64,000 nt of DNA from NCBI GenBank assembly GCA_029964075.1, contig CM057142.1, positions 325,770-389,769 on the forward strand. The letters are read 5' to 3'. This DNA comes from Patiria pectinifera (lineage: Eukaryota > Echinodermata > Asteroidea > Valvatida > Asterinidae). A program made the translations under genes and the position numbers. How positions within the stretch are numbered: the first letter of the stretch is position 1; each line of letters opens with the position of its first letter. This document shows, piece after piece, positions 24,970 to 51,252 of the stretch. The notes under the pieces were generated by a model. It made no database searches. It saw only the letters and a program-made list of their open reading frames with translations, and was not told the DNA's origin.

Positions 24970-25004
24970 TCAAAACTTCAGATCAGCCTCTGACTCATCA
25001 GTAT
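24970..25004 (-). other. Acidic terminal exon, peptide gene 1
   Basis: After a TTTATGTTCACAG acceptor the exon reads, in phase 1, TDESEADLKF and stop. The same exon is at 45901-45938 (TDESDEADLKF) and 46793-46827 (TDESDADMKL). In gene 1 the upstream exon arrives in a different phase, so the protein would end after two codons (stop at 24998-25000) and most of this exon would be 3'UTR. Confidence 0.6.
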
Positions 25005-27064
25005 CTGTGAACATAAACATAAGAAAATCACCTTTAATTAAAAAAAAAAAAAAAATTGTTGAGATTATTCGATGATTATTATGATATACAAAATATGCGC
25101 GGCCAAATTAAAGGCCTTTTTTTTTGCAAATATTGAAGTGTTTTGGAGAGTGAAGCAATGCAAGGGATGGCAGGCCTACCATACCAGTATGAAACTGATT
25201 TCGAGCGGTTCATAATCATTTATAGCTGGTCGATGAGTGATATTCTTTGAAAATGATTTTCAAATCCGAGAAAATTTGAGAGCAATTTGGCGTTCCTGAC
25301 GGTTTTCAGAAAACAAGGCTCGAAAAGCGGGTCCCTGATCCATTTGGTTTAAAGGGTCTAGGTGGCCGTCTGAGTCAAAATGTTTGGCCAAGGTGAGTCT
25401 TAATAAGTGTAATTAGCAAGTGACAGTCAGTCGGGGAGTCAGTCGGTCAGTCGGTTAGTCGGTCGGGGAGTCGGTCAGTCGGGGAGTCAGTCAGTCAGTC
25501 GGTCGGGGAGTCAGTCAGTCAGTCGGTCGGGGAGTCGGTCAGTCGGGGAGTCAGTCAGTCAGTCAGTCGGGGAGTCAGTCGGTCAGTCGGGGAGTCAGTC
25601 AGTCAGTCAGTCAGTCGGTCATTCGGTCGGTCAGTCGGGGAGTTGGTCAGTCGGGGAGTCAGTCAGTCGGGGAGTCAGTCAGTCGGGTTAGTCAGTCAGT
25701 CAGTCAGTCAGTCGGGGGGGGGAGTCGGGAGTCAGTCAGTAAGTCAGTCAGTCGGTCAGTCGGGGATGGAGTCGGGGAGTCAGTCGGTCAGTCAGTTGGT
25801 TGGTCAGTCAGTCGGGGAGTCAGTCAGTCAGTCAGTCAGTCGGGGAGTCGGGGAGTCAGTCGGGGAGTCAGTCAGTCAGTCGGTCGGTCGGTCGGTCCGG
25901 TCGGTCGGGGATTCGGGGAGTCAGTCAGTCAGTCGGGGAGTCAGTCAGTCAGTCAGTCGGGGAGTCGGGGAGTCGGGGAGTCAGTCGGTCAGTCAGTCGG
26001 GGAGTCAGTCAGTCAGCCATTAAGATAAGTCGACAGAAAACTGCGCAGGTTGAGCTTCGGGGACAAGCAAACATCACGATATAACTACTTGGAAGGTACT
26101 TACCGATATTCAATAATAGGCTTGCACTGAAACCATTCGCAATATTGAAGTTGAGGGCAGGCATCCAAATAAAGACAGACTGAAAGGAGAATAATATAAA
26201 AAAGTAAGGAGTCATCTCAATCAGCATCCAGGACATGATGTGGAGATGTGTGTCCGACTCAGGCTCATCGTATCGGGTATTAAATGGATTCCTTCCGCAG
26301 TGAAGTTACACGCAAACTTCGCCACTGGGGCAATTTGAAACATTTGAAATAATTTGATTTCAATTGCTGCAAACGGGCTGCTAACTGAAAACAGGGAATA
26401 TTCTGCAATATTAGTGTGATGGGTATGGCTACACATCATACCAAGGACATAATACCCGCCTGAACAACCCGCATTAGGGGCGGATCTAGCTTTCAGGAAT
26501 AGCATGGAGACCGGGGGCGTGGGGTTGATATTTGAGTGAACGCTTGCTCCTGCTATAGGGGGTGTGGGGGAATGCCACATTCCCCATTCTGAGGAAAGTT
26601 CAGAATAAATTGAGAAACTTTGAGTTACTTTTCATTTTTTTGGCCGCATTTTACTGTTATCATGAAAATAGTTTCAGCGGCTGAACGGGGTTGGGGTGTG
26701 CAACACTCCCCCTCGATCCGCTACTGCACATTCGTTTCACAAAATAATATTCTTAAAGGGTATGGCATGGCAGTGAACTGCTTAAACAAACAAACGAAAT
26801 CTTACATCGTCCACGGGGCTCAAGATCGTCAATTTTCTCATGAAGTGCCCGAGGAGATTCTGAAATAAAAAAGTGTTCATTTGAATAACTTGCAATGTCG
26901 TGGTGTAATTTGTAAGATCAAAGAAAAACTGATCAGGTTGCAACAATATCACTTCAAGACGTTGTCGGTTTTGTTTTGTGTTTTTACAAATTACCTGGCT
27001 TGGCTGCGTCTGCGAAGACGACACCCAGGCACACCAGAAGAACCAAAAAGGTAAAAGCCTTCAT
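24998..27064 (-). CDS. Small secreted four-cysteine peptide precursor, gene 1
   Basis: A predicted 68-residue secreted precursor, minus strand. Coding exons are 26995-27064 (signal peptide, begins MKAFTFLVLLVCLGVV), 26806-26859 (acidic pro-region ending DDLEPRGR), 26104-26179 (mature region with four cysteines, spacing C-x5-C-x5-C-x4-C, containing ACPQLQYCEWFQC) and 24998-25004 (last codons). Splice sites are GT-AG and phases agree. Gene 2 at 49710-51252 has the same plan and length. The layout (signal, acidic pro-piece ending in basic residues, short disulfide-rich mature peptide) is that of antimicrobial or toxin-like host-defence peptides, and starfish cysteine-rich antimicrobial peptides have a comparable plan. 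Function is inferred. The 5'UTR exon appears to be at 44288, across a 17-kb intron. No family identified with certainty. Confidence 0.62.
25425..26020. repeat. GTCAGTCGGGGA-type minisatellite (about 600 bp)
   Basis: A simple array of AGTC steps in which GTCA, GTCG and GGGGA blocks alternate irregularly. The long Ser/Gln/Val open frames it produces are artefacts of a 4-nt repeat. It sits in the last intron of peptide gene 1. A second array of the same type is at 46355-46680, and only a stub (TTAGCGAGTCAGTGAGCCAG at about 49180-49199) exists in gene 2. Confidence 0.95.
26474..26727. mobile_element. hAT-like insertion in peptide gene 1 intron
   Basis: Left end TAGGGGCGGATCTAG and right end CTCGATCCGCTACTG form an imperfect inverted repeat. 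Gene 2 has uninterrupted intron sequence at the matching place (about 50880-50900, AACCCGAGGTCATTTCACAA). The exact target duplication is unclear. Confidence 0.6.
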
Positions 27065-27332
27065 CTTGACTCTAAGTGTCAAAGGAAATGAAAATCGTGA
27101 CGAAAACCTGAAACCGGGTTTGGCCATAACTTTTACAAATCTCAATGAATGAATTTAAACGTAAGCACTATTTTAAACAGAGAGAAGGCGTTGAAATGGA
27201 AACCATCAAAACATATACCGGTATTGATTATATGCCGAGGGTAACTCGACCCTGGGCGATAAAGTGCTAAATAGTTCGACCCCAAACCTTCTCTTTTAAA
27301 CACGTGCTGGTATGAAAGAAAGATGTCTTTCA

Positions 27333-29028
27333 GTCATTTCGTGTAAATACTTCATAAGTGTCAACGCTAAAACCAAAACAAAAAAGGAGACTTTTTTAAT
27401 ACTTTGTCGATGAAAGGACTTGGGGAGTAATTTACCAGAATATAATTTTTAAATCCACAGCAGGTCCGTTGCCTTGGTAACAGGCCACTAAATGTTCTGG
27501 TGATTTGGGGCCAATTTTGAGGCGGTAAAAATTCATTCTTCGAGTTATTTTCAAAGGTCATCAGGTCAAAATGCAAAGTAATGTCACAAAGTAACTATAT
27601 CGTGACAAAGAACCATCCCTACCCTAATACCAGAAAAATAGAAACATTTTGAAAATTCACCTTTATATTACTTTTAGGCCCTACAATGCAGCATGTTTTT
27701 GCAACCAACAAAATTGCCTTTTTTACCCCATTTCTAACCCTCCAAAATGCCACTTGCCAGGGCACTCAGAATAATTTCCTTTTGCCTAAGGCTAGTTCAG
27801 ACATTCGTGTTTTCATATCTGTTGAGATTTTGGGACATTGTATACCTTTTGTGCAGTAGCTGTCCAAAAATGGTGATTTTCACCCTCCCCCCCAAAAAGT
27901 CTATTTTCATTTTTTTCTTTGTTTTGAGTAATACACGTATAATTGGAAGTGTTCCTGAATCTAGCACATTTTCACAAACAAAAACACCCTGTGTATCCCT
28001 GTCAGACAAATGGATGAGTAGTGGGAGCCATAGTCCCGCCCCCCAACACCGTGCTAGGCCCAGCCCAATCCCCCCGTGCCAACGAATTTAGATCTTGTCT
28101 TTTTATATATGTATAACGAAAAAAATGTAATAAATATGTTTTCAAGTGAACACTTTAAATTACACATACTGCCTTTTCACAACCTCCCCTGCCCCCATCA
28201 GGTGCATTGTTTGGAGTTGAGGGTGGGGTGTGATCACCCATCATATAAAAACCAGTAATTGTACCGACAAAACCAAGTGATTGGTGGACGGTCATAACCC
28301 CAGTCTCAAACCCAAGCAATACCGCTGGGAGCAGGGGAGGCTGTAAAAATGCAGACTGTGTAATTTGTGGACTGAAAAAGTATTTATTTACATTTTTTTG
28401 TAATGAAAATAACAGACAAGATCTGAATTCGATGGCACGGGGAGTGGGCGGGCCTATTCAGGTATGGGGGGGGGGGGGTTGGAACTATACGACCTACTCA
28501 TCCACTGGTCTAACAATGATACACAGTGTGGTTTCGTTTGGAAAATATGCTAGATTCAGGAATGATATTACTCAAAGGAAATAAACCCCTGAAAATACAA
28601 CTTTTAAGGTTTTTGTAATAATCATCATTTTGGGAGCGATACTGCACAAAAGGTATACAATGCCCAAATATTTTCTCACTATAGATGAAAACATCAATGT
28701 CTGAAGTAACCATATAGCCAAACGGATATTATTCTGAGTGGCATTTTGGAGAGTTGAAAATTGGGTTAAATATGCAATTTTGCTAGTTGTACAAACATGC
28801 TGCATTTTTTCATTTTATTCTGGTAAGGGTAAAATGATTCTTTGTCATAATATAATTACTTTTGTGACATTACTTCGCAAGTTGGCTTCATGGCCTTTGA
28901 AAATAAAGCCAACAATTAATTTGAGCAGTCAAAATTGGGCAAAATATTAATTTAAAAATGCTGTATAAATTAATTCGATTTTATAAGCTTGGACACTTAT
29001 ATGAAGTATCTACACGAAATGACTCTTA
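27333..29028. mobile_element. Fold-back element with long inverted arms
   Basis: Sequence from about 27333 (CATTTCGTGTAAATACTTCA) inward is matched in inverted orientation by 28500-29028 (ending TGAAGTATCTACACGAAATG). Internal landmarks such as TATACCTTTTGTGCAGTA (27839) and TACTGCACAAAAGGTATACA (28641) correspond. The arms are several hundred bp, diverged, around a middle near 28260-28470. It lies inside the first intron of peptide gene 1. Confidence 0.7.
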
Positions 29029-29049
29029 AATGCCGTGAGAAGAAACGTA

Positions 29050-29690: not shown

Positions 29691-32106
29691 GCAGCAGGAT
29701 TCCAGTCGAACCAGTGAGTTTGGTGGTTTAAGACATCATCTTACATTGAAAGACATCACCTTATATTGCCGACGCGCATGGCTATGGCGACGGCGACGCG
29801 CGCGCATACCAGAAACTAGAGCCTTTTTTGGCCTAATAATCGTTTACTTCGTTTCGTATGAATAAAAAGGAGTAAATGCTTCAGATTTCAAATATGCACT
29901 TGTCATTTGCAAGGCTGGGTTGGGGCAACCTAGAAATTATAAAGCAAAATAATTCTGCGCAAAAACTACTGCATTTATTAAAGTTCATTAATGATACCAT
30001 GTTTGTATGAATAAAGCATGGCATTTGCTTTTTCTACCACTTTCGAAGCATTTACTCGCATCTGTATGAATGAAAATTAAGCAAACACTGTTACTAAAAA
30101 CCATTTGCTCTTGAGTAAATGGCCTGCAAAATGTAAGCTTTACACGTTTATAGGTTTGCAGAAAATAAAACTATCGTAACCGAAACGGAAAGCGGCACTG
30201 GGGAGGGTCACGTGCTGGAGGACAGATACAAAAAAGCGCACCAAACGTGACGAACGCAATGCCGTTTATGCGCACAATGCGCTGTGCATCGGCACCCATG
30301 GTCTACATGTGGATTGGGTTTTCAGTCCCTACCTGATTCCGTGGGTTTTCCCCAGACTATTCTTCTGGGGTTTTCCTCCCACCTCTAAAACTGTAATTTC
30401 TTCTCACTGTCTTCTCTATACGTTTTTTTTTTCGGGGTTTGCGAGCTACAGTGCCTGGGGCATGCACTTTTGAGGAATCGTTGGTTTCATTACCAGAAAA
30501 AAATAATTTATCGTTTATATTTCGTTTCGTATGAATAAAGAGGAGTAAATGCTTCAGATTTTAAATATGCACTTGTCATTTACAAGGCTGGGTTGGGGCA
30601 ACCTTGAAATTATAAAGTAAAATAATTCTGCGCAAATATTACTGCATTTATTAAAGTTCATAAAGTACAAATGATACCACGTTTGTATGAATAAATCATG
30701 GCATTTGCTGTTGCTACCACTTTGAAGCATTTACTCGCATCTGTATGAATAAAAATTAAGCAAACACTTTTACTAAAAACCGTTTGCTCAATTCTGAAAA
30801 TAATTACTTTTTACCTTTAAGCTTTTGCTACACTATAAGCGTTTACTTCGTTTCTTATAAATAAAAAGGAGTAAATGCTAAAATTTTTAAATATTTACTT
30901 GTCATATTTCAAGGTTGGGTTGGGGCTACCTTCAAAATACAAAAGCACATAATTCTGCGCAAAAATTACTGCATTTATTAATGTTAATCGCGAAAAAGTA
31001 CAAATAATACCATACGGTAGTTCGTATGAATAAAAACTGGCATTTGCATTACTCCCGTCTGTATGAATATAAATTAATCAAAGGCTTTTTCTAACAACCA
31101 TTTGCTCTTGAGTAAATGGCCTGCAAAATGTAAGCTTTACACGTTTATAGGTTTGCAGAAAATAAAACTATCGTAACCGAAACGGAAAGCGGCACTGGGG
31201 AGGGTCACGTGCTGGAGGACAGATACAAAAAAGCGCACCAAACGTGACGAACGCAATGCCGTTTACGCGCACAATGCGCTGTTCATCGGCACCCATGGTC
31301 TACATGTGGATTGGGTTTGCAGTCCCTACCTGATTCCGTGGGTTTTCCCCAGACTATTCTTCTGGGGTTTTCCTCCCACCTCTAAAACTGTAATTTCTTC
31401 TCATTGTCTTCTCTATACGTTTTTTTTTTCGGGGTTTGCGAGCTACAGTGCCTCGGGCATGCACTTTTGAGGAATCGTTGGTTTCATTACCAGAAAAAAA
31501 TTATTTATCGTTTATATTTCGTTTCGTATGAATAAAGAGGAGTAAATGCTTCAGATTTTAAATATGCACTTGTCATTTACAAGGCTGGGTTGGGGCAACC
31601 TTGAAATTATAAAGTAAAATAATTCTGCGCAAATATTACTGCATTTATTAAAGTTCATAAAGTACAAATGATACCACGTTTGTATGAATAAATCATGGCA
31701 TTTGCTGTTGCTACCACTTTGAAGCATTTACTCGCATCTGTATGAATAAAAATTAAGCAATCACTTTTACTAAAAACCGTTTGCTCAATTCTGAAAATAA
31801 TTACTTTTAACCTTTAAGCTTTTGCTACACTATAAGCGTTTATTTCGTTTCTTATAAATAAAAAGGAGTAAATGCTAAAATTTTTAAATATTTACTTGTC
31901 ATATTTCAAGGTTGGGTTGGGGCTAACTTCAAAATATAAAAGCACATAATTCTGCGCAAAAATTACTGCATTTATTAATGTTAATCGCGAAAAAATACAA
32001 ATAATACCATACGGTAGTTCGTATGAATAAAAACTGGCATTTGCATTACTCCCATCTGTATGAATATAAATTAATCAAAGGCTTTTACTAACAACCATTT
32101 GCTCTT

Positions 32107-34457
32107 ATTATTATTATTATTATTATTTATTCGGCATTAAAAACACAAACAACAAACATTCACATATAGAGAAAACCAAAAACCAAGAAAACAAAAACGA
32201 ACATGACGAAAGCCAGGGGCATATGCCCGGAATTAAAAAAGTTTACCTAAAAACTGTGGCCCGAAGGCCTTCAATTCCAATACCTCTGGCTACACAAAGA
32301 ATATATATAAATCTATAAAAATCTATAAAAATGTGTTAACAATAAAAGCATATATTAAAAATGGCAGAGGTATAAATGCTAAAAAGTTATCGTCCCCTAA
32401 AATTAACATCAAAATACCACGTTGAGAAAAAACAAGATAAAAAGCAAAAAACAAAACCAAAAAAATAGTCCAACAAAAAGAACAGGCAAAAAATGTCCCC
32501 CCCCCATTATAGTTCAAAGACCCAATTATTGTGGATGTCCACATTAAACATTAAAAAAGTTAAAAAGTTTCAATACACGCAATAAAAAAAAACAAATATT
32601 AGAAAAAATAAGGAAAATCATTCAACAAAACATGAGAAAAAAGCCACCCCCCCCCCAGTAAAAAAAGTTTCGTTGCAAGTAAAAAGACGTAATATTACCC
32701 TGGAGAAAAAAAAACAGTTGAGAATTAGCAAAAGCAAAACAAAACAAGCACGACAAGTTCTTTTCAGAACTAAACATCTGCTGAGCAGCAGTTATCACCA
32801 CATGGTGTTACTGCAAACCGAAATGATACAAAAAACCCCTATTAAACAAACGATATACGCCTTGAAGCTATGCATGGCAGCTGGCATTAAAGTGGACAGA
32901 ATCACGGGCAATGCCATGTGGAAAGAAATCTCTTCCTGGAAGAAGTATGGTTCTGAAAAGAACCGGTTTTCAAGAAGAAGAGATCTCCCTCCACACGGCG
33001 CCATCCGAAACCCTTTCCACTATAAAGCAAGAGATGAGAAAAAATGTCACCCCCCCCCCCAGTTAAAAATACACAAAGAACTAAAAGGACCCAGTACAGT
33101 TACTGTGGTCGGCAGAGGTGGCATCTTAGGGAATTGATCCAGCTATTTAATGACATTTCAACGACGCCAGACCTCAGAGATTCCGGTAGCTCGTCCCATT
33201 CACGAGCAAACACATTCACTGCAGAGCCGTGAAGTCTTTGTGTGCGAGCTCTAAGATGACAAAACCGCACTGTTTCAGTGTGTCGACCGTTGACCACAAT
33301 GCCGTGTCTAACAATGTTACAAGTAATGTGGCCATACAGTGCTTTCATGACATACGAGATTAAAAGGAACTTGCGTCGTGCCACAAGAGAGGACCAATTT
33401 AAAAGATTCAGTCGGTCAGTGTAGTTCATTTCCATTCTTCTCTGTTTTAAGATCATTCTTGTAGCGCGACGCTGAACACTTTCAATCTTATCAATGAGAT
33501 TATTATTATGAATGCGCCACACTGGCTGACCATATTCTAAAATGGGTAAAACCAAGGCCTTGTAGAGTGCTAATTTGGCCTCCTAAGATATGTCCTTGGC
33601 AACACTAAATATGAAGCCCAACATTTTGTTGGCCTTAGAAACAACATAGTTCACGTGCTCATTCCAAGTCAATTTACTGTTTAAAAAAACACCCAGATAT
33701 TTGTAATTTGCGACAACATCAAGAGGAGAATTATTAATATTATACGTAGGAACACCGGGATTTCTAGAACAAGTTATACGCATAACTTTCGTTTTCTTAA
33801 TATTTAGATTCATCCTGTTGTCTACACACCACCTGTGGATTTGATTAAGATCCTCCTGTAAAATACGTTCATCCTGTTGGCAAGATATAGGTCTGAATAA
33901 TAATGTATCATCTGCAAACAACAGACAGGCAGAAGAAGTACATGAGGGAAGGTCATTAATAAACAAGTTGAACAAAAGCGGCCCTAAGACACTACCCTGG
34001 GGTACTCCTGATGATACTGGAAGCCAGGGTGAAAAGCTACCTTTGTACAGAACCCGCTGATAACGACCTGAGATGAAAGACTTAATCCACTTCCAAACAT
34101 TGCCAGTAATATTGTATTGACAAGCTAGCTTTTGAAGTAGAATGTCATGAGGCATTACATCAAAGGCCTTTGCAAAATCGAGAAAAAGGGCATCAATTTT
34201 GGGTGGACTAGGTTTATCAAGAATGGTTAGCCAATTGTTGGTAACATTCAGAAGCTGAGTCACACAGGATCGCCCTTTTACAAACCCATGCTGCTTGGAT
34301 GACAAAAGCAAATGATTTGTGACATGGGAAGTTATGGCATTGGCAATAGTGGATTCCATGATTTTACAAACCACCGAAGTCAATGCGATGGGACGGTAGT
34401 TACAGATCAAGCCTGTGTCACCAGACTTAAAAATTGGGGTGATATTTGCCCTTTTCC
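32107..34457 (-). mobile_element. 5'-truncated non-LTR retrotransposon (LINE)
   Basis: It interrupts one satellite unit; the extra length (2353 bp by landmark spacing) agrees with these limits. The 3' end is an (AAT)n-type tail on the minus strand (TTATTATT.. at 32107-32128), typical of several LINE clades. It encodes only the reverse transcriptase and downstream part; the endonuclease end is missing at the junction near 34457. The residue pattern suggests a CR1/Jockey-like clade. Confidence 0.88.
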
Positions 34458-34460
34458 AAA
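33100..34460 (-). pseudogene. LINE reverse transcriptase, truncated, one stop codon
   Basis: RNA-directed DNA polymerase of the LINE at 32107-34457. Reading from 34460 downward shows YRPIALTSVVCKIMES, then HGFVKGRSCVTQLL, DFAKAFDV, the GVPQGSVLGPLLFNLFINDL block and the catalytic FADD motif (LLFADDTLLF). The frame is broken by one TAG at 33583-33585. It then continues in the same frame to 33100 with VLPILEYGQPVW and a terminal WDELPESLR region. The N-terminal endonuclease domain is absent. The copy is dead through truncation plus this nonsense codon. Overlapping plus-strand frames are shadows. Confidence 0.9.
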
Positions 34461-37400
34461 GAGTAAATGGCCTGCAAAATGTAAGATTCACACGTTTATA
34501 GGTTTGCAGAAAATAAAACTATCGTAACCGAAACGGAAAGCGGCACTGGGGAGGGTCACGTGCTGGAGGACAGATACAAAAAAGCGCACCAAACGTGACG
34601 AACGCAATGCCGTTTACGCGCACAATGCGCTGTGCATCGGCACCCATGGTCTACATGTGGATTGGGTTTTCAGTCCCTACCTGATTCCGTGGGTTTTCCC
34701 CAGACTATTCTTCTGGGGTTTTCCTCCCACCTCTAAAACTGTAATTTCTTCTCATTGTCTTCTCTACACGGTTTTTTTTTTCGGGGTTTGCGAGCTACAG
34801 TGCCTCGGGCATGCACTTTTGAGGAATCGTTGGTTTCATTACCAGAAAAAAATTATTTATCGTTTATATTTCGTTTCGTATGAATAAAAAGGAGTAAATG
34901 CTTCAGATTTTAAATATGCACTTGTCATTTACAAGGCTGGGTTGGGGCAACCTTGAAATTATAAAGTAAAATAATTCATAGGTTGGGTTGGGGCTACCTT
35001 CAAAATATAAAAGCACATAATTCTGCACAAAAATTACTGCATTTATTAATGTTAATCGCGAATTAATAATACCATACGGTAGTTTGTATGAATAAAAACT
35101 GGCATTTGCATTACTCCCGTCTGTATGAATATAAATTAATCAAAGGCTTTTTCTAACAACCATTTGCTCTTGAGTAAATGGCCTGCAAAATGTAAGCTTT
35201 ACACGTTTATAGGTTTGCAGAAAATAAAACTATCGTAACCGAAACGGAAAGCGGCACTGGGGAGGGTCACGTGCTGGAGGACAGATACAAAAAGGCGCAC
35301 CAAACGTGACGAACGCAATGCCGTTTACGCGCACAATGCGCTGTGCATCGGCACCCATGGTCTACATGTGGATTGGGTTTGCAGTCCCTACCTGATTCCG
35401 TGGGTTTTCCCCAGACTATTCTTCTGGGGTTTTCCTCCCACCTCTAAAACTGTAATTTCTTCTCATTGTCTTCTCTATACGTTTTTTTTTCGGGGTTTGC
35501 GAGCTACAGTGCCTCGGGCATGCACTTTTGAGGAATCGTTGGTTTCATTACCAGAAAAAAATTATTTATCGTTTATATTTCGTTTCGTATGAATAAAAAG
35601 GAGTAAATGCTTCAGATTTTAAATATGCACATGTCATTAACAAGGCTGGGTTGGGGCAACCTTGAAATTATAAAGTAAAATAATTCATAGGTTGGGTTGG
35701 GGCTACCTTCAAAATATAAAAGCACATAATTCTGCGCAAAAATTACTGCATTTATTAATGTTAATCGCGAATTAATAATACCATACGGTAGTTCGTATGA
35801 ATAAAAACTGGCATTTGCATTACTCCCGTCTGTATGAATATAAATTAATCAAAGGCTTTTTCTAACAACCATTTGCTCTTGAGTAAATGGCCTGCAAAAT
35901 GTAAGCTTTACACGTTTATAGGTTTGCAGAAAATAAAACTATCGTAACCGAAACGGAAAGCGGCACTGGGGAGGGTCACGTGCTGGAGGACAGATACAAA
36001 AAAGCGCACCAAACGTGACGAACGCAATGCCGTTTACGCGCACAATGCGCTGTGCATCGGCACCCATGGTCTACATGTGAATTGGGTTTGCAGTCCCTAC
36101 CTGATTCCGTGGGTTTTCCCCAGACTATTCTTCTGGGGTTTTCCTCCCACCTCTAAAACTGTAATTTCTTCTCATTGTCTTCTCTATACGTTTTTTTTCC
36201 CGGGGTTTGCGAGCTACAGTGCCTGGGGCATGCACTTTTGAGGAATCGTTGGTTTCATTACCAGAAAAAAATAATTTATCGTTTATATTTCGTTTCGTAT
36301 GAATAAAAAGGAGTAAATGCTTCAGATTTTAAATATGCACTTGTCATTTACAAGGCTGGGTTGGGGCAACCTTGAAGTTATAAAGTAAAATAATACTGCG
36401 CAAATATTACTGCATTTATTAAAGTTCATAAAGTACAAATGATACCATGTTTGTATGAATAAATCATGGCATTTGCTGTTGCTACCACTTTGAAGCATTT
36501 ACTCGCATCTGTATGAATAAAAATTAAGCAAACACTTTTACTAAAAACCGTTTGCTCAATTCTGAAAATAATTACTTTTTACCTTTAAGCTTTTGCTACA
36601 CTATAAGCGTTTACTTCGTTTCTTATCAATAAAAAGGAGTAAATGCTAAAATTTTTAAATATTTACTTATCATATTTCAAGGTTGGGTTGGGGCTAACTT
36701 CAAAATATAAAAGCACATAATTCTGCGCAAAAATTACTGCATTTATTAATGTTAATCGCGAAAAAATACAAGTAATACCATACGGTAGTTCGTATGAATA
36801 AAAACTGGCATTTGCATTACTCCCATCTGTATGAATATAAATTAATCAAAGGCTTTTACTAACAACCATTTGCTCTTGAGTAAATGGCCTGCAAAATGTA
36901 AGATTTACACGTTTATAGGTTTGCAGAAAATAAAACTATCGTAACCGAAACGGAAAGCGGCACTGGGGAGGGTCACGTGCTGGAGGACAGATACAAAAAA
37001 AGCGCACCAAACGTGACGAACTCAATGCCGTTTACGCGCACAATGCGCTGTGCATCGGCACCCATGGTCTACATGTGGATTGGGTTTGCAGTCCCTACCT
37101 GATTCCGTGGGTTTTCCCCAGACTATTCTTCTGGGGTTTTCCTCCCACCTCTAAAACTGTAATTTCTTCTCATTGTCTTTCCTTATACGTTTTTTTTTCG
37201 GGGTTTGCGAGCTACAGTGCCTCGGGCATGCACTTTTGAGGAATCGTTGGTTTCATTACTAGAAAAAAAATATTTATCGTTTATATTTCGTTTCGTATGA
37301 ATAAAAAGGAGTAAATGCTTCAGATTTTAAATATGCACTTGTCATTTACAAGGCTGGGTTGGGGCAACCTTGAAATTATAAAGTAAAATAATTCATAGGT

Positions 37401-39967
37401 TGGGCTGGAGCTACCTTCAAAATATAAAAGCACATAATTCTGCGCAAAAATTACTGCATTTATTAATGTTAATCGCGAATTAATAATACCATACGGTAGT
37501 TCGTATGAATAAAAACTGGCATTTGCATTACTCCCGTCTGTATGAATATAAATTAATCAAAGGCTTTTTCTAACAACCATTTGCTCTTGAGTAAATGGCC
37601 TGCAAAATGTAAGCTTTACACGTTTATAGGTTTGCAGAAAATAAAACTATCGTAACCGAAACGGAAAGCGGCACTGGGGAGGGTCACGTGCTGGAGGACA
37701 GATACAAAAAAGCGCACCAAACGTGACGAACGCAATGCCGTTTACGCGCACAATGCGCTGTGCATCGGCACCCATGGTCTACATGTGAATTGGGTTTGCA
37801 GTCCCTACCTGATTCCGTGGGTTTTCCCCAGACTATTCTTCTGGGGTTTTCCTCCCACCTCTAAAACTGTAATTTCTTCTCATTGTCTTCTCTATACGTT
37901 TTTTTTTTCGGGGTTTGCGAGCTACAGTGCCTCGGGCATGCACTTTTGAGGAATCCTTGGTTTCATTACCAGAAAAAAATTATTTATCGTTTATATTTCG
38001 TTTCGTATGAATAAAAAGGAGTAAATGCTTCAGATTTTAAATATGCACTTGTCATTTACAAGGCTGGGTTGGGGCAACCTTGAAATTATAAAGTAAAATA
38101 ATTCTGCGCAAATATTACTGCATTTATTAAAGTTCATAAAGTACAAATGATACCATGTTTGTATGAATAAATCATGGCATTTGCTGTTGCTACCACTTTG
38201 AAGCATTTACTCGCATCTGTATGAATAAAAATTAAGCAAACACTTTTACTAAAAACCGTTTGCTCAATTCTGAAAATAATTACTTTTTACCTTTAAGCTT
38301 TTGTTACACTATAAGCGTTTACTTCGTTTCTTATAAATAAAAAGGAGTAAATGCTAAAATTTTTAAATATTTACTTGTCATATTTCAAGGTTGGGTTGGG
38401 GCTAACTTCAAAATACAAAAGCACATAATTCTGCGCAAAAATTACTGCATTTATTAATGTTAATCGCGAAAAAATACAAGTAATACCATACGGTAGTTCG
38501 TATGAATAAAAACTGGCATTTGCATTACTCCCGTCTGTATGAATATAAATTAATCAAAGGCTTTTACTAACAACCATTTGCTCTTGAGTAAATGGCCTGC
38601 AAAATGTAAGATTTACACGTTTATAGGTTTGCAGAAAATAAAACTATCGTAACCGAAACGGAAAGCGGCACTGGGGAGGGTCACGTGCTGGAGGACAGAT
38701 ACAAAAAAGCGCACCAAACGTGACGAACTCAATGCCGTTTACGCGCACAATGCGCTGTGCATCGGCACCCATGGTCTACATGTAGATTGGGTTTTCAGTC
38801 CCTACCTGATTCCGTGAGTTTTCCCCAGACTATTCTTCTGGGGTTTTCCTCCCACCTCTAAAACTGTAATTTCTTCTCATTGTCTTCTCTATACGTTTTT
38901 TTTTCGGGGTTTGCGAGCTACAGTGCCTCGGGCATGCACTTTTGAGGAATCGTTGGTTTCATTACTAGAAAAAAAATATTTATCGTTTATATTTCGTTTC
39001 GTATGAATAAAAAGGAGTAAATGCTTCAGATTTTAAATATGCACTTGTCATTTACAAGGCTGGGTTGGGGCAACCTTGAAACTATAAAGTAAAATAATTC
39101 ATAGGTTGGGCTGGGGCTACCTTCAAAATATAAAAGCACATAATTCTGCGCAAAAATTACTGCATTTATTAATGTTAATCGCGAATTAATAATACCATAC
39201 GGTAGTTCGTATGAATAAAAACTGGCATTTGCATTACTCCCGTCTGTATGAATATAAATTAATCAAAGGCTTTTTCTAACAACCATTTGCTCTTGAGTAA
39301 ATGGCCTGCAAAATGTAAGCTTTACACGTTTATAGGTTTGCAGAAAATAAAACTATCGTAACCGAAACGGAAAGCGGCACTGGGGAGGGTCACGTGCTGG
39401 AGGACAGATACAAAAAAGCGCACCAAACGTGACGAACGCAATGCCGTTTACGCGCACAATGCGCTGTGCATCGGCACCCATGGTCTACATGTGAATTGGG
39501 TTTGCAGTCCCTACCTGATTCCGTGGGTTTTCCCCAGACTATTCTTCTGGGGTTTTCCTCCCACCTCTAAAACTGTAATTTCTTCTCATTGTCTTCTCTA
39601 TACGTTTTTTTCGGGGTTTGCGAGCTACAGTGCCTCGGGCATGCACTTTTGAGGAATCGTTAGTTTCATTACCAGAAAAAAATTATTTATCGTTTATATT
39701 TCGTTTCGTATGAATAAAAAGGAGTAAATGCTTCAGATTTTAAATATGCACTTGTCATTTACAAGGCTGGGTTGGGGCAACCTTGAAATTATAAAGTAAA
39801 ATAATTCTGCGCAAATATTACTGCATTTATTAAAGTTCATAAAGTACAAATGATACCATGTTTGTATGAATAAATCATGGCATTTGCTGTTGCTACCACT
39901 TTGAAGCATTTACTCGCATCTGTATGAATAAAAATTAAGCAAACACTTTTACTAAAAACCGTTTGCT

Positions 39968-41403
39968 TGTAAGAAGTTTTCGTGTATTTCCCCCCTTTTC
40001 GCGAAATGGTATAGTCTCAAAAGTTTCTTCCAATAGCACTAACTGCATTATCCCAGAACCGGTCTTTGTTACTCTGTGCGCGTTATGTAACCGTTTTTTT
40101 TGCAGCAAGCTTTTTCGGTAGTTGTGGGTTTTCTCTCCAGCAGCATTACAAAAGCCATGGTTGTGTGTAAATTAGGTGTTTGCAACACCTTTGGTGAATA
40201 ATAGAATTCAGGTGTTTAAACAAAAGTTACTAGGGAGTTGCTTTGCCAACAGTGAAGGAACAGTGGAGTGATTGGGTGTGTGTGGGTTTCTGACGAAAAA
40301 GTGAGAGTGATCATGAAGGAATCAGATCAGAGCAGACCAGATCGTGGTAGAAAGCAGATGTGATTTTGAAGAATTGTCTTGTGTGTGTCACTGCATGAAC
40401 CTGAGCCAACAGGCATAGCAAAGCTATAGCAGGCAGTTAGTTTGTGTTGACTAGTTGAGAGCCTATTTGAGGCAGTAATATTTGGGCTTGAATTTCAAGG
40501 CCCCAGTGAGCAGTTTTGTGCTCAGTTAAACACACCAAGGAGATCTGGGATTTCAAGAAACCACACAACCGTAAGTGTTTATAGCTAAACTATCCACTTG
40601 TAAATTTATCATTTTGTTGAAGAAAATAATAGTATTGTTGCTCCGATTTTATGAAAACCAGTAGTAATCTTTGAAAGGTAGACTGATGTTAAGTACCTTT
40701 GATTTATGTTGATTAAGCATACTTTAAAGCATGATTAATATTAGTTTGAAGATCAGACTGATGTTTGAAATAAGTGTTGGATTTTTATGATGAAGTTATA
40801 CCTTTCGATAAGACAGCTGATATTTTGAATATAAGGTGTAGAACAAGATAACTGATGGATCATTGATTTGTAAATTACTGATGTCAAGTGAAAGATATTT
40901 ATTGTAAGGATCACTTGAATATTTTGTAAATAGATGGCTGTCTGGTGAAGGACAAGGAACGAGCTGTAGCATTAGCCAAGGGCATCGAACTGTTGCGGCT
41001 GTAGGACACCCAACCCAGGAGGCGGTGTCTCCAACGATCAACCGGCATCAGACGATTCAAGACAGTACCGTGGGCTTGATATCCTTAAAACGCCTGCTCC
41101 TCCCATTTAAAGACCCTTGTATAGAGTAAAATAATTTAAAGTAACTGCAGAGTGGAAGTTTGTTTAAAGATTAATTGCTTTTTATTTAAAAGGAAACACG
41201 AAGGACATAATATGATCTAGAAGTGAATTAATGTAACAAGTGAAGAAATACCGGCCTACCACAGTTGTAAATAAGTGTAAATTGTTTGTAAATAGAACAG
41301 ATATACTGAAGAAAAGCTTATTGTGTTTAGTGTGTTTCTTTCGTTGTTGAGGAAATAAATAGTTGTAGACTATTGGACACGAATTTAGGGAATAATCCTA
41401 ACA
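39968..41403 (+). mobile_element. Solo LTR, 1436 bp
   Basis: Inserted within a satellite unit. It begins TGTAAGAAG and ends CCTAACA, giving the canonical TG..CA ends. The 5-bp direct repeat TTGCT (39963-39967 and 41404-41408) flanks it, and other satellite units show the uninterrupted TTTGCTCAATTC. No internal coding region and no second LTR are present, so recombination left a solo LTR. An AATAAA lies near its right end (about 41354), suggesting plus orientation. Family not determined. Confidence 0.82.
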
Positions 41404-42560
41404 TTGCTCAATTCTGAAAATAATTACTTTTTACTTTTAAGCTTTTGCTACACTATAAGCGTTTACTTCGTTTCTTATAAATAAAAAGGAGTAAATGCTA
41501 AATTTTTTAAATATTTACTTGTCATATTTCAAGGTTGGGTTGGGGCTAACTTCAAAATATAAAAGCACATAATTCTGCGCAAAAATTACTGCATTTATTA
41601 ATGTTAATCGCGAAAAAATACAAGTAATACCATACGGTAGTTCGTATGAATAAAAACTGGCATTTGCATTACTCCCATCTGTATGAATATAAATTAATCA
41701 AAGGCTTTTACTAACAACCATTTGCTCTTGAGTAAATGGCCTGCAAAATGTAAGATTTACACGTTTATAGGTTTGCAGAAAATAAAACTATCGTAACCGA
41801 AACGGAAAGCGGCACTGGGGAGGGTCACGTGCTGGAGGACAGATACAAAAAAGCGCACCAAACGTGACGAACTCAATGCCGTTTACGCGCACAATGCGCT
41901 GTGCATCGGCACCCATGGTCTACATGTGGATTGGGTTTGCAGTCCCTACCTGATTCCGTGGGTTTTCCCCAGACTATTCTTCTGGGGTTTTCCTCCCACC
42001 TCTAAAACTGTAATTTCTTCTCATTGTCTTCTCTATACGGTTTTTTTCGGGGTTTGCGAGCTACAGTGCCTGGGGCATGCACTTTTGAGGAATCCTTGGT
42101 TTCATTACCAGAAAAAAATTATTTATCGGTTATACTTCGTTTCGTATGAATAAAAAGGAGTAAATGCTTCAGATTTCAAATATGCACTTGTCATTCACAA
42201 GGCTGGGTTGGAGCAACCTTGAAATTATAAAGTAAAATAATTCTGCGCAAAAATTACTGCATTTATTAAAGTTCATAAAGTACAAATGATACCATGTTTG
42301 TATGAATAAAACATGGCATTTGCTTTTGCTACTACTTTGAAGCATTTACTCGCATCTGTATGAATGAAAATTAAGCAAACACTTTTACTAAAAACCGTTT
42401 GCTAAATTCTGAAAATAATTACTTTTTACCTTTAAGCTTTTGCTACACTATAAGCGTTTACTTCGTTTCTTATAAATAAAAAGGAGTAAATGCTAAAAAT
42501 TTTAAATATTTACTTGTCATATTTCTGTCCACGTATCACAAACAAATGGTGTGTGTTCTT

Positions 42561-44125: not shown

Positions 44126-44287
44126 ACCAGAATGCCGTTTAAGACTGGCCACGTGACGGGCTCTCGACCAATAGAAATGGGTAAACTGTCTTAGGTATTT
44201 ATGAATGAATAATCAAATATACGGCAAGCTTAATAAAAGCATCTTAAGCTAAAAAGGAAAAGGTGTTTAAAATCAAATGATACTCAC

Positions 44288-44357
44288 ATTGCGCTGTTCT
44301 CGAGAGCAACTTGGTCGGTCGGAATAACGGCGAGAGGACGAACACATGGCTTTTATA
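44288..44357 (-). promoter_or_regulatory. TATA box and 5'UTR exon, peptide gene 1
   Basis: On the minus strand TATAAAAG (44350-44357) is followed about 60 nt later by a splice donor, GCGCAAT|GTGAGTATC (exon end 44288). The gene 2 copy at 52143-52251 has the same arrangement (TATAAAAG, then GCGTGAT|GTAAGTG). Homology with gene 2 resumes on the far side of the satellite, which makes this the first exon of the gene at 24998-27064. Transcription start is inferred. Confidence 0.55.
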
Positions 44358-44589
44358 AGATTGAGGCAGCCCTAAACAGTGTAGTGGCGAAACTTCGGAG
44401 GGGGGCGGAGCCTAAGTCATGATGGATCAAAATGTTTTACATAACTGGCTCGCGTGACATATTATCCTTGATGATGAAATATGGAATGGAACTGCAAACT
44501 GATAAAAGAAATATTGAGTATGGACATTTTTTACTAATAAATTCATAATTATGCACGCATGCGCATCAAAAGGCCTATATCGCGGGTTA

Positions 44590-44760: not shown

Positions 44761-45279
44761 GGGTGTACCCTCAATTTTTTTTGTTGTAATCTCCTTTGAC
44801 TGCGTAGCCATTGATTTCTAGTAGGTGGTTTTGGAGTGGAGGGGGTGTTTTGCAATTACCCGGAAAACAGTAGTTTGCACGTGAAACAAAACATACCAAT
44901 TGAAAATTTGTTAGGAGAACAAAGAGCTTTTTTTTGAAGAGCACGGGGTATATATGCATCTTTAAGTTGTATAATAACTATTTCTCACCAAATCTTTTTA
45001 AAAACCTTAGAATGACAATGACAAAGCAACATGTCGCCAATAAAGAAGGCCTAAGCATTCGGATTGAAGCTCGAGATGAATATTAATGATAGGACTATAC
45101 GTTAATGATAGGCCTATACGGACATGACCGTTATCTAAGGTCGTCCCTTTCCAACAAGCTTTCAACATGGGCGATATATTAGGATTTTCACCCGAAAGTA
45201 GGAAGGGGGTGGGGTGGGGGTGGGGTGGCGGTGGGGAAACGTATTTGTGGCGTAAGAGAAATCCGTCTGAGAAATTATC

Positions 45280-46690
45280 TTCACCTAAATGGGATTGTCA
45301 TTTTACTGCCTACAACTTTGAAACTTTGAAAGATAGCATACGGGATTGGCTTAGATGATTAGCGCAGAAGTTGTGTCTGCATGAGAACTGAAAAAAGAAC
45401 ATCTTTTACATGTCACTTCTGCATATATAGTAACTAGCTATCGATAGATGAGTCGCATACTCAAGAAGCAAAATCCAACACAACTTATACGTTTTTCGAT
45501 CAATTTTATTCATTGCTGAGCTCATGCATTGTATTTTGAAATCAATTTAAAGCGGAAATCAAAGATATCTTGACAAACAACTTGTTCAAATTTTGGACTC
45601 CTATAGAATATGGATGTTGTTTACCTAAAGGTTTTTTGGTTTGGATTTTTTTCATCAGCATTACAGGTATAATTGTGTAACGTGAAGTGTTTTGTTTCAT
45701 TCCACGAAATTCATATCCTGTTGAGAATATAAATTTCATGCCCACTGTTGTTACATCCAGTCAGTTACGCGTTTTTAATTGTCTTCTATAGCCGAAATTG
45801 TGAGGGACATATCTGATATTTTTGTGGAAAACAACAAATAAATTGTTCGATAAATAGAGTAACATGCAAACCACCACCAGAAACAAATAAATACTGTCGG
45901 TCAAAACTTCAGATCAGCCTCATCAGACTCATCAGTATCTGTGAACATAAACAGAAGAAAATCACCTTTTATTAAAACAAAAACAATTTTTGTTGAGATT
46001 ATTCGATGATTATTATGATATACAAAATATGCGCGGCCAAAATACAGGCCTATTTTTGCAAATATTGAAGTGTTTTGGAGAGTGAAGCAATGCAAGGGAT
46101 GGCAGGCCATGCACCCAGTATGAAACTGATTTCGAGCGGTTCATAATCATTTATAGCTGGTCGATGAGTGATATTCTTTGAAAATTATTTTCTAATCCGA
46201 GAAAACTTTAGAGCAACTTGGCGTTTCTGATGGTTTTCAGAAAACAATGCTCGGAAAGTGGGTCCCTGATCCATTTGGTTTAAAGGGTCTAGGTGGTCGT
46301 CTGAGTCAAAATGTTTGGCCAAGGTGAGTCTTAAGGAAGTGTAATTAACAAGTGACAGTCAGTCAGTCAGTCAGTCAGTCAGCCGGTCAGTCGGGGAGTC
46401 GGTCAGTCGGGGAGTCAGTCAGTCAGTCGGTCGGTCGGTCAGTCAGTCAGTCAGTCAGTCAGCCGGTCAGTCGGGGAGTCGGTCAGTCGGGGAGTCAGTC
46501 AGTCAGTCGGTCGGTCGGTGGCAGTCAGTCAGTCAGTCAGTCAGTCAGCCGGTCAGTCGGGGAGTCGGTCAGTCGGTCAGTCAGTCGGTCAGTCGGTCGG
46601 TCAGTCGGGGAGTCAGTCAGTCGGGGAGTCGGGGAGTCAGTCAGTCAGTCGGTCGGTCAGTCGGGGAGTCGGAAAGTCAGTCAAAACTAA
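45280..46690 (-). pseudogene. Duplicated 3' part of a peptide gene
   Basis: Matches the gene 1 3' region (about 24045-25445) in order and orientation: the 3' flank, the hAT empty site at 45714, an acidic terminal exon (45901-45938, TDESDEADLKF) and the minisatellite-bearing intron (array 46355-46680). It stops at the array and joins sequence like the gene 2 3' end. No mature, pro or signal exon belongs to it, so it is a gene fragment. Confidence 0.75.
46355..46680. repeat. GTCAGTCGG-type minisatellite, second array
   Basis: The same 4-nt-based composition as 25425-26020, including GGGGA blocks, and preceded by the same single-copy sequence (TTTGGCCAAGGTGAGTCTTA). A longer period of about 84 bp (CAGCCGGTCAGTCGGGGAGT block) repeats within it. 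Its Ser/Gln/Val frames are not genes. Confidence 0.92.
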
Positions 46691-46792
46691 CTTATTTTGT
46701 TCTGTAGCCGAAATGTCGAGTGACATAGCTGAAATTGTTCCATAAATAGATTAACATGCATCCCACCACCAGAAACAAATAAATCCTGTCGG

Positions 46793-46827
46793 TCAAAGCT
46801 TCATATCAGCGTCTGACTCATCGGTAT
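46793..46827 (-). other. Acidic terminal exon, likely of peptide gene 2
   Basis: Acceptor TTTATGTTCACAG, then TDESDADMKL and stop in phase 1. It is the nearest such exon downstream of gene 2. The gene 2 cysteine exon ends in phase 1, so the frames join, but gene 2 has a stop codon before that junction. As spliced this is 3'UTR unless the stop is bypassed. Confidence 0.55.
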
Positions 46828-46930
46828 CTGTGAACATAAACATAACAAATCACCCTTTATAACAAAAAAATTAAGAAAAAATAAAGCTTTATTTTGATTA
46901 TCCGATGATTACTATGATACAGAATAGGCG

Positions 46931-47639: not shown

Positions 47640-48115
47640 TGAGGTACCCCACAAGGAAAGCCCACCGACTTTGGTACCCCACAAGTTTTTCACGAAATAG
47701 ATATATGGATTTTATTCAAAACTAGGAATTTCCAAGGTGGGTTGATCCGTCGCAAATGGAAGAGTTTTAGAAAAGGGATATTAAGTCCGAATTTTAGCCC
47801 AGGAAATTAATTCTGGTTAAAATAAGAGCATTTTGACATTAGTGTGCGACATTGCAAAATTTTAGTAAACGAGAACAAAGGAAGTACCCCACTTCTATGC
47901 CGTGTAGTAAAGTGTTCAATTTTGAAAGTGAATTTTCAAAATGCTCTTATTTTAACCAGAATAAGTTTCCTGGGCTGAAATTTGGAATTAATATCCCTTT
48001 TCTAAAACTCTTCCATTTGCGACAAATAAACACACCTTGGAAATTCCTAGTTTTTGAGTAAAACCCATATATCTATTTCGTGAAAACCTTGTGGAGACCT
48101 ATTCATCTATAGAAA
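47640..48115. mobile_element. Fold-back repeat, GTACCCCACAAG type
   Basis: Sequence such as AGAGTTTTAGAAAAGGGATA (47761) is inverted at 47990-48020 (TATCCCTTTTCTAAAACTCT), and CACGAAATAGATATATGG is inverted at 48065-48083. The arms are about 230 bp. A single arm occurs at 53005-53290. Confidence 0.75.
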
Positions 48116-48240
48116 TTGCCCTGTGGAGACCTTTACAATGTTTTGTTCACTATTGTGTGTGAGTCTCCACAAGGCAGCGAATTTGTGGTCACAGGGAACA
48201 AAGAAATGTCTCCACAAGGATACAAATTTTGGAATGTGTG

Positions 48241-48300
48241 TAAGGGTGTGTGTGTGTGTGTGTGTGTGGTTGGGGGGGGGGTAGGGTTAGGTTTAGGGTT
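48241..48300. repeat. (TG)n microsatellite with two telomere-like hexamers
   Basis: A TG run followed by poly-G and GTAGGGTTAGGTTTAGGGTTA. Two TTAGGG-like motifs alone are too few to call an interstitial telomere array. Sequence from 48301 to 49000 shows nothing else recognised. Confidence 0.7.
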
Positions 48301-49202
48301 AACTATATGAATTCCTTTGGGGAACTAACCCACCGGGCCGGTTTTTATGTGCAACCTCTATGAGAGAACGCGGCGAAAAATCATTAAAAACGGGCCTTTT
48401 TTCACATCTGTCGCCACAACTTCATTATTCTACAGGGAATACCTTAGATCTCACTACAGTGTGACCCTAACAATATACTCTTTCAGAAAATGAAAGAAAA
48501 ACTGAATAAAACACTGAGTTTCACTCGCGTATTGATGTTAAACATTGCATTTTTAGTCAAAAATCTCCCTGTTTTGTGTGTAAACCACGCGTTCAGCCAA
48601 GAACTGGCCCATTAACATCATCATAACGTTAAATAGCGCCACCTTGGAGCTTAGATCTCTCGAGTCATTTTTCTTCGTCTCGTCAGCTTTCCAACAATAT
48701 AACCCTTATTGTGATTGGTTAAGGTTTAGGCTCGCGTGTATTCATTGACTAAAGAATTGTACATCTAAACTCCAATAAAATTTGCCGTTGCTCAATGGCT
48801 CAGCGCGTAGGGTCTGTTTATTGTACACGTGCTAGGCAGTGCTACTGTATATACACAGAGCCCGGGAGCTCTTATCTCTCTGTGTCCAAGGTCATCTGGC
48901 TGTGCGCTTTGGCCAGTTTACATGGGGTCCTTTTGACCACAAAGGATTTGATATATACCCCCCTCTGGATCCGCACCTGGGTCGCTCAGTGGTATTCTGT
49001 GAAAACGATCTTCAAATCCAAATTTGAGAGCATGTTGGCGAGCAAGGTTTTTTTTATTTAGAAAACTTAAGACTTAAAAAAGAGGTTCCGTAATCCATTT
49101 GGTTTATGGAGGTCGTCTTAAAGTCAAACTGTTTGGCCAAGGTGAGTCTTAAGCACGCTTAACTACAAATGACATTCAGTTAGCGAGTCAGTGAGCCAGT
49201 TA

Positions 49203-49572
49203 AGCCCGACGCACACCTGTCCGTTTTTGCCGGTTCACCGGATCTTCGGGTCATCGTACGGAGGTGTGCGCTAAACATTTGGACCGATCCGACCCTACAT
49301 CGGGCGACCGGATGATTTTGTTCGCATCCGATTTCACCGGATCCGATTTCACAGGACGCAATATTTATGTTAACCAATCAGATTTTACGAAGGACGTCAC
49401 ATGGTTGTCATCATGTGACTGGTCATCATGTGACCGATTTTTGGACGGAATCGGGCATGTGTGCGGGTAACGTTGTGGTCTAATACCTCCGGTGAAAAAC
49501 AATAGGCCTATAGGCCTACCGGTGATGCGGTGATCCGGAAACCGGTAAAATCGGGAAAGTGTGCGCCGGGCT
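49203..49572. mobile_element. PIF/Harbinger-like MITE, 370 bp
   Basis: Begins AGCCCGACGCACAC and ends GTGTGCGCCGGGCT, inverted with one mismatch. The flank is TTA on both sides (49200-49202, 49573-49575). It is inserted in the last intron of peptide gene 2, where gene 1 has its minisatellite. CCGGAT/ATCCGG motifs fill the interior. Confidence 0.78.
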
Positions 49573-49709
49573 TTATAGTCAATAAGATAAATAGAAAGTA
49601 GGCCGAGCTTTCGGGATCAACCAAAATCACGATATTACTATGTGGAAGGCATACACTTACCGTTTTTTTTTGTTGGCGGCCATCGACGCACTTTATGCAG
49701 ACGACGTGT

Positions 49710-51252
49710 TTAATCATATTGGCGACCGCAGAAGCCAGGATGGTTGCAAACAAGGGGGTAAGGGCAACTATGTGGATTCCACGGATCACACGCTAAAATG
49801 GAAAAAAGAGAAATGGAATCAACAGTCATCTCAATAATTAAAGTACGCAGAGTTGTAACGAGTCACTGATTTTTGTGACTCGAGTCGAGTCGAGTCATTT
49901 TAAAGAAGTGACTCGAGTCGAGTCGAGTCATTAGGTCAAGAAGGTCGAGTCGAGTCGAGTCACAGTGTGTAGTCCAGTCGAGTCGGGTCGACCCAAAAAT
50001 TAAGCTCGGGTCAATTCGAGGCAAGAAATATTTGAACACTATAATAACAAATAAAGACAAGAGAGAATTTGTATCACTTACAGTCAACAAGAAGTGAAAC
50101 TTCGGTCTGATAGGCTATATCTGGTTTGGCTTTGGGTATAGAATTGTTTTCCTTTTATGAAAGGTCTGACCCAAATCATGAAATCCAGAATGTTTTTAAT
50201 TTATTTTTGAGCCAACAGCAGACAAAACAATACCAAAACAAAACCCAGCAGGAATAATTCAATAGGTCTCAAGAAAGAGCATGTGCATGTGCACAAAGAT
50301 TAAGAAATCAATTTCAGGGGGCCTAAATCCTCAAAATAAAAACAAACACTAAATGTGAGTCTTGGATTTGTAAAAATTGTGTGTAATGCTATATACCAGT
50401 TTGTTAGGCCTAGGGCCCATAGCCACTCTAAACAAACTACCCCCCCCCCCCAAAAAAAGCTAATAAATAAAGAAAATCTGGGGCAACTCGGTCAGGGGGC
50501 GACTTGACACTATCATCTCCAGACATGCTTTTTCTTCATCGTTTTCGTCCGATAAATCCCCATGAATATCCGAATTATTCATTATTCACCCAAACACATC
50601 AGCTACAGAAAGCCTACCTTTATACCTGCTACTGAAAACCAGAAGTGGAAAAATCATCAATTTTGCGCAAAAAAAAAAAAAATCAAGGAACATGACGGGG
50701 AAAAAAAGGTTGCAATCTGACGCCACTTTTTTTTCATTTCAAATAGTTCGAAGTATTTCAACTAAAGGGCTGCAAGCTGAAAACAGGAACAATTCTGCGA
50801 TTTTACTGTGATGAGCATCGCTACCTAGTTTTACGAAAAACATAAATGAACCAAAACCATCAACATACCACCTGGAAAAACCCGAGGTCATTTCACAAAA
50901 CATTCAAAAAAGGAATAGTATGGCCAGGAACTGCTTAATGAAACAAAGACCAGCGAAAATGGCGGCAACGGTATCTTACCTTGACGGGACTCAAGATCGT
51001 CAGTTTTCGCATCATATTGCCGTGGAGACTCTGAAATAAAATAAAAAGGCTATCTCTCGTGACTGACGGAGGCAACATGCTACTCTCAATACCGTGATTA
51101 TGAAACAATCAAAGAAGACCCGATCTAGCTGCATCAATGCCAATTCTATTTTCTTCGGTTTTGTTTTGTTTTTAAAAATTACCTTCCATGGCTGCGTCTC
51201 CGAAGACGACACCCAGGCACACCAGAAGAACCAAGCAGATAAAAGCCTTCAT
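49710..51252 (-). CDS. Small secreted four-cysteine peptide precursor, gene 2
   Basis: Predicted 67-residue paralog of the gene at 24998-27064. Coding exons are 51183-51252 (signal peptide, begins MKAFICLVLLVCLGVV), 50980-51030 (pro-region, ends DDLESRQ) and 49710-49792 of an exon that runs to a donor at 49661. The mature part has four cysteines, C-x7-C-x5-C-x5-C, with SCPYPLVCNHPGFC, and ends GRQYD at TAA 49710-49712. Signal exons differ at only three residues before the pro-region, and intron flanks align, but the mature exon is almost unrecognisable between genes apart from CP-x4-C. After the stop the same frame stays open through a basic stretch (RRLHKVRRW) and joins the acidic exon at 46793-46827. 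Likely an extracellular defence-type peptide; function inferred. Confidence 0.62.
49876..49998. repeat. GAGTC pentamer microsatellite
   Basis: Repeated CGAGT/GAGTC blocks interrupted by single-copy stretches. Lies in the peptide gene 2 intron just upstream of its cysteine exon. Confidence 0.9.

Follow-up and report, generated by a model that had tools for sequence, protein, structure and literature searches.

The window analysed here comprises 64,000 nucleotides (nt) of the sea star Patiria pectinifera (GenBank assembly GCA_029964075.1, contig CM057142.1, positions 325,770 to 389,769; positions below are those of the window). It raises the question of whether two series of very short exons on its minus strand are genes, and what they could be for. 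An earlier note, made from the sequence alone, had read them as two paralogous genes for small secreted peptides with four cysteines, and as an immune or defence cluster. Its observation was partly confirmed and its interpretation partly supported. The two loci, here called genes A and B, are likely a real paralogous pair encoding secreted four-cysteine peptides. We consider it somewhat better than an even chance that they, together with the 3′ remnant of a third copy, represent a family of small, secreted, defence-type peptides in sea stars.

Two paralogous genes of short exons

Both genes follow one plan, and all their parts lie on the minus strand. In gene B, the TATA box and 5′ non-coding exon occupy 52143–52251 (TATA at 52251, donor GT at 52142–52141), followed by a signal exon at 51183–51259 (7 nt of 5′ untranslated region (UTR), 23 codons and 1 nt), an acidic pro exon at 50980–51030 (51 nt, phase 1-1, ending DDLESR-Q), a mature exon at 49661–49792 (132 nt, phase 1-1, four cysteines) and a last exon at 46793–46827. 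The corresponding parts of gene A are at 44288–44357 (TATA at 44357, donor GT at 44287–44286), 26995–27071 (77 nt, aligned to the signal exon of gene B), 26806–26859 (54 nt, phase 1-1, ending DDLEPRGR), 26104–26179 (76 nt, four cysteines, no stop, leaving phase 2) and 24970–25004. The earlier note had placed its exons correctly, while missing the last exon of gene B and an orphan third copy of that exon (C, 45901–45938, minus strand). In both genes, 7 nt of the signal exon precede the ATG, and introns 1 and 2 are in phase 1; at intron 3, the mature exon leaves phase 1 in B (132 nt) and phase 2 in A (76 nt).

The spliced precursors are 68 residues long in A and 67 in B, with four mature cysteines in the frame that splice phase dictates, as had been claimed. 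These are spaced C-x5-C-x5-C-x4-C in A and C-x7-C-x5-C-x5-C in B. The count of exactly four holds after the signal peptide, not for the whole precursor, since the signal itself contains C12 in both genes and additionally C6 in B. The pro region is acidic as described (segment charge −1.1 in A and −3.5 in B), though its C-terminal end is a lone Arg (R-G-R in A), not a dibasic site. Dibasic cleavage was accordingly rejected as a processing route, the pro regions offering single Arg only.

The evidence for paralogy extends well beyond the coding exons. A blast comparison of A with B gave 11 collinear blocks, 72–89% identical, reaching from the DNA ahead of the TATA box as far as the 3′ UTR. In global alignments, where identity was counted over aligned ungapped positions (a measure that flatters introns by omitting gaps), the agreement was 127/150 upstream of the TATA box, 53/68 over nearly the whole stretch of TATA box and 5′ non-coding exon, 140/178 at the end of intron 0 (the intron ahead of the signal exon), 101/124 in intron 1, 41/50 in the pro exon, 76/93 at the start of intron 2, 44/51 at the start of intron 3, 31/35 in the last exon, which has the same acceptor in both genes, and 56/60 in the 3′ UTR past it. 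The signal exon agrees at 70 of 77 nt (91%), which justifies calling it nearly identical as DNA; only 18 of its 23 residues are the same. For the signal and pro exons and for three intron stretches (intron 1, intron 2 in its 5′ part, intron 3 at its start), none of 300 shuffles reached the observed score. The introns were said to be aligned, which is true of these three stretches but not of the last part of intron 2.

The position of the mature exons was examined by scanning the interval between pro and last exon for splice sites, using consensus splice weights, with thresholds of our own choosing (minimum score 3 for acceptors and 4 for donors). Each gene contains exactly one phase-1 exon that has 15 codons or more and at least three cysteines, and at these thresholds the gene intervals hold no further phase-1 exon with at least three cysteines. 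Over the whole window, both strands and all phases, the same thresholds gave 25 pairs, with two four-cysteine exons, which are those of A and B. Laxer thresholds raised the number of four-cysteine exons to 5 and then 17, A's and B's included, and 30 shuffles of one 64-kb strand (three phases) produced 0.67 on average, with a maximum of 2. Given such chance exons, four cysteines are in themselves weak evidence, and the argument is carried by position and phase. The splice sites of the mature exons rank in the top 0.1–0.6%, those of the gene B pro exon in the top 0.1% of the strand, and the gene A pro donor in the top 2.3%. The first cysteine codon is equidistant from the acceptor in A and B, and the cysteine codons are TGT-TGC-TGC-TGC in both, a coincidence with a chance of 1/16 under equal codon use and thus weak alone.

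At the promoter end, TATAAAAG stands just ahead of both 5′ exons, whose ends lie at 44288 in A and 52143 in B. It occurs twice on the minus strand of the window and seven times on the plus strand. A stretch of 79 nt ahead of each TATA box (52373–52451 and 44439–44517) is 88.6% identical between the genes, the highest value among the 11 blast blocks, and has GATA-type sites close by; such sites occur upstream of TATA in both genes within a 600-nt stretch. In neither gene do the 600 nt ahead of the TATA box contain a kappaB or AP-1 consensus site, and Rfam gave no match in the window at gathering thresholds. At the other end, gene A has a polyadenylation signal, AATAAA, 112 nt past the TGA.

The last exon and the state of the reading frames

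The last exon is present three times, in A, in B and as orphan C, whose preceding intron 3 end and 3′ flank are 93–94% identical to those of gene A. One acidic frame is open to a common TGA in all three copies; it reads TDESEADLKF-stop in A and TDESDADMKL-stop in B, and C carries an in-frame 3-nt insertion. Neither gene reaches this frame. The mature exon of A has 76 nt, that is 3n+1, so that the spliced product completes an Arg, adds one Tyr from the last exon and stops at 24998, out of phase with the shared tail frame. The 132-nt mature exon of B carries phase 1 into the last exon and would deliver the tail frame, but a TAA at 49712–49710 intervenes and leaves the last exon beyond the stop codon. 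Past that TAA, the frame of B is open to the donor, with seven of 16 codons encoding Lys or Arg and none Asp or Glu. Among the open 16-codon stretches of the strand, 63 of 29,137 match this basic make-up, a property chosen after it had been seen.

Because both frames look truncated relative to the common last exon, pseudogene status is possible. This suggests, tentatively, an ancestral precursor longer than those encoded here, with A and B either shortened or decaying. In its full form, this explanation takes the intact precursor to consist of signal, acidic pro segment, four-cysteine core, basic segment and acidic tail, from which the TAA cuts B before the basic segment and the length of the mature exon costs A its tail frame, with live members elsewhere in the genome. 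The phase of the B exon, the basic stretch after its stop, and the tail frame open in three of three copies with an in-frame insertion in one all speak for it, as do the myticalins, which combine a similar layout with nonsense pseudogenes (PMC5577615). On the other hand, conservation of the tail exon does not exceed that of the 3′ UTR behind it (89% against 93%), its few changes between A and B are mostly nonsynonymous (counts below), runs of 11 open codons arise often by chance, and the cysteine frames are intact up to the stops in both genes. We hold decay to be a genuine but lesser possibility.

Divergence of the mature exon and duplication history

The mature exon behaves quite differently from its surroundings. 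When A and B were compared, 190 of 300 shuffles reached the score of the real pair (782/1000 and 857/1000 in two other forms of the test), and 48 of 300 did so for the last part of intron 2. The blast similarity ends within intron 2, at 26341 in A and 50735 in B, and restarts 8–12 bases beyond the mature-exon donor. The block from the middle of intron 2 to the mature donor is thus not alignable between the genes. The introns elsewhere agree at 79–86% of aligned positions and the signal exon at 91%, whereas the core is unalignable, as far as two genes allow a comparison. The contrast between a conserved signal and a fast-changing core, proposed in the earlier note, is therefore correct in direction. 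Its cause is less clear: since the mature exon lies inside a block with no detectable nucleotide similarity, replacement of the block is as possible as fast point change.

In the strict form of this alternative, the two mature exons are non-homologous, and a block of exon plus intron 2 end was swapped under a kept signal and pro region by phase-1 exon shuffling. The sharp limits of the similarity, the mature-exon shuffles and core proteins no more alike than shuffled ones fit such a swap. There is also a precedent in cone-snail contryphan and hairpin toxin genes, where phase-1 introns shuffle a signal exon onto another peptide (PMC10501145), although those are mollusc venom genes and the likeness drawn here is one of gene layout. 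On the other side, the number of cysteines, their codons and the position of the first one after the acceptor are identical in A and B, and the last 100 nt of intron 2 retain a slight signal (reached by 12 of 300 shuffles). We consider non-homology of the two mature exons rather unlikely.

The repeats of the locus offer a route by which the genes could have been duplicated. A CAGT tetranucleotide array lies in intron 3 of gene A (25424–26016), and another between the last exon of B and the orphan copy C (46356–46662), where it marks the duplication junction. This fits duplication by unequal crossing-over at the arrays. The first intron of gene A holds about 16.3 kb (43651 to 27323) at a place where that of gene B has about 25 nt (51462 to 51436). 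Within that of gene A lies a satellite-like array (29845–42525) spaced at about 710 and 997 bp, absent from the intron of B, with 5 to 16 copies per family among 20 of at least 60 repeat families. It also contains a reverse transcriptase frame, probably of the long interspersed nuclear element (LINE) type (33583–34518, minus strand; RVT_1, E 7.7e-33), and an adjoining open piece (33100–33582) has no Pfam match.

Further from the genes, a 278-nt stretch occurs three times at 17544–18651 (spaced 420 and 410 bp, 76–97% alike), and 55744–58815 contains two short-repeat clusters with 41/12/53-nt spacing, 2.7 kb apart. The plus strand at 60309–60899 carries the first exon of a gamma-butyrobetaine dioxygenase gene, which has several close copies in Patiria miniata; over a 178-residue query region it is 96% identical to P. 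miniata, 69% to the best Acanthaster planci match and 66% to the best Asterias amurensis match. Near the window edge, a 143-residue open frame without Pfam match (632–1063, minus strand) might be a gene exon. The genome publication gives 22 pseudochromosomes, a quality value (QV) of 31.77 and a heterozygosity of 5.16% for the assembly (PMC10511450).

Function of the encoded peptides

Conserved signals joined to fast-changing disulfide cores are typical of host-defence and toxin-like peptide families. The small tandem family seen here probably consists of diverging secreted two-disulfide peptides of host defence, the defence role itself being plausible. For the products of A and B we infer the following course. 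The transcript driven by the TATA promoter would contain three to four coding exons besides a non-coding one, and the signal would direct the precursor into the secretory pathway. There, the acidic pro segment would be cut off behind the lone Arg in DDLE-[PS]-R, leaving the four-cysteine exon to provide a peptide of 23–28 residues with two disulfides. Cleavage after the last Arg of the pro region would yield cores of 27 (A) and 28 (B) residues. In B, where the last cysteine is followed by Gly-Arg and then three residues, a C-terminal amide may form at Cys-Gly-Arg, and the N-terminus may become pyroglutamate; A has no Gly beyond its last cysteine. Once released, on epithelial surfaces or in the coelomic fluid, the peptide may bind varying foreign targets with its fast-changing loops.

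Several observations weigh against this proposal. The shared tail frame is missed by A and lies behind the stop of B. The signal-exon acceptors are weak: among AG sites, that of A makes only the top 5.7% and that of B the top 7.8%. Within 499 nt of the last exon of B there is neither AATAAA nor ATTAAA. The signal exon is closer between the genes than the introns are, yet its changes are mostly nonsynonymous: counted by Nei-Gojobori, it has 1 synonymous difference over 17.0 sites and 6 nonsynonymous ones over 52.0, against 2 and 10 in the pro exon (11.8 and 39.2 sites) and 1 and 3 in the TDES frame of the last exon (6.3 and 26.7 sites). The ratio of nonsynonymous to synonymous rates (dN/dS), which the earlier note had suggested for the signal exon against the mature exon, cannot be put to a test with so few differences. 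The core proteins are no more alike than their shuffled versions (1888/2000 in full and 1982/2000 with cysteines fixed). The encoded cores have net charges of −1.3 (A) and −1.1 (B), unlike cationic antimicrobial peptides, so the membrane lysis usual for those is not favoured.

The protein search points the same way. With both precursors it returned one candidate, and none up to E 1; the database includes P. miniata and A. planci proteins, although such a search can detect only predicted proteins that have short words in common with the query. As a control, the neighbouring reverse transcriptase found named animal proteins among the best 120 of 7977 matches. Pfam and NCBIfam gave no match up to E 10. 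Against the PDB, the precursor of A had no match and that of B had one at E 1.9 (a topoisomerase). Hevein-like chitin binding by the B core was considered and rejected, the match to Ac-AMP2 in the PDB being at chance level (E 3.2). The literature search recognised no publication describing the A/B pair, a weak negative with most subscription papers outside its coverage. The earlier reading of an immune or defence cluster is a plausible conjecture drawn from architecture; the cores are slightly acidic, and the protein search brought up no relative.

How far the architecture carries can be judged from known systems. The obvious comparison is with PpCrAMP, reportedly described by Kim et al. in 2018 as a cysteine-rich antimicrobial peptide of P. 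pectinifera. It is said to have four cysteines, an intron-split coding region, a cationic character, a positive segment before the cysteine segment and C-terminal amidation. The species, the small secreted cysteine-rich type, the intron-split coding region and the count of four mature cysteines agree with A and B, in which by contrast the preceding segment is acidic and the cores have a net charge of about −1.

Among other echinoderm peptides, the centrocins also have signal and pro regions more alike than their mature chains and lose a C-terminal Gly-Arg (PMC4805251), but they are cationic and two-chained, where A and B have one core per precursor with a charge of about −1. The strongylocins (PMC4805251) have six cysteines against the four post-signal ones here, are cationic, and keep the mature part at least as well as the pro part. 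Outside the echinoderms, the myticalins of mussels share a 5′ UTR exon, an intron just before the ATG, a conserved signal and a very variable mature part, and are also alike in the phase-1 intron before an exon for an anionic end and in Gly-Arg amidation; they differ in being linear and strongly cationic, with the mature part on the exon of the signal (PMC5577615). Ranid frog antimicrobial peptides share the conserved signal, acidic propiece and hypervariable mature part, although they are generally cationic and alpha-helical, and the likeness drawn here is one of layout (PMC7106915).

The same features bear on whether A and B could instead be secreted signalling or reproductive peptides, of the hormone, sperm-egg or pheromone type. 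Slightly acidic cores able to form two disulfides, a single-Arg site, possible amidation in B and the tandem pair would all suit such a role, and reproductive peptides can evolve fast too. In signalling peptides, however, it is the peptide that is conserved while signal and spacer diverge (PMC10501145), the reverse of what is seen here. This reversed pattern, together with the layout shared with frog and mussel peptides, favours an effector role; a signalling or reproductive role is improbable. Finally, the four-cysteine frames are very unlikely to be chance openings in non-coding paralogous repeats, despite the frequency of such exons in shuffled strands and at lax thresholds, since each lies within a single interval and in a phase set by an independent paralogous frame, where arithmetic from the shuffles leads one to expect about 0.006 (A) and 0.014 (B).

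Returning to the defence-type family, a bolder version of it can be drawn by comparison with conotoxins, in which a conserved signal accompanies a variable core with kept cysteine codons. A and B could belong to a cassette family, with constant 5′, signal, pro and tail exons, phase-1 mature exons swapped as blocks, and crossovers at CAGT arrays. This is speculative and quite unlikely. If true, it would mean a germline repertoire of hypervariable disulfide peptides with a conotoxin-like logic, in which the two loci are two cassettes and the orphan last exon is the scar of a crossover.

It is worth adding that a review from 2025, in the part of it available, names only one sea-star antimicrobial peptide, from P. 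pectinifera. Genes with coding exons of 35–132 nt and a first intron of up to 17 kb are easily missed by annotation, and more sea-star effector peptides may therefore be uncounted. The signal, pro and tail exons described here provide handles for counting the family, and for distinguishing selection from exon swapping in its mature exons.

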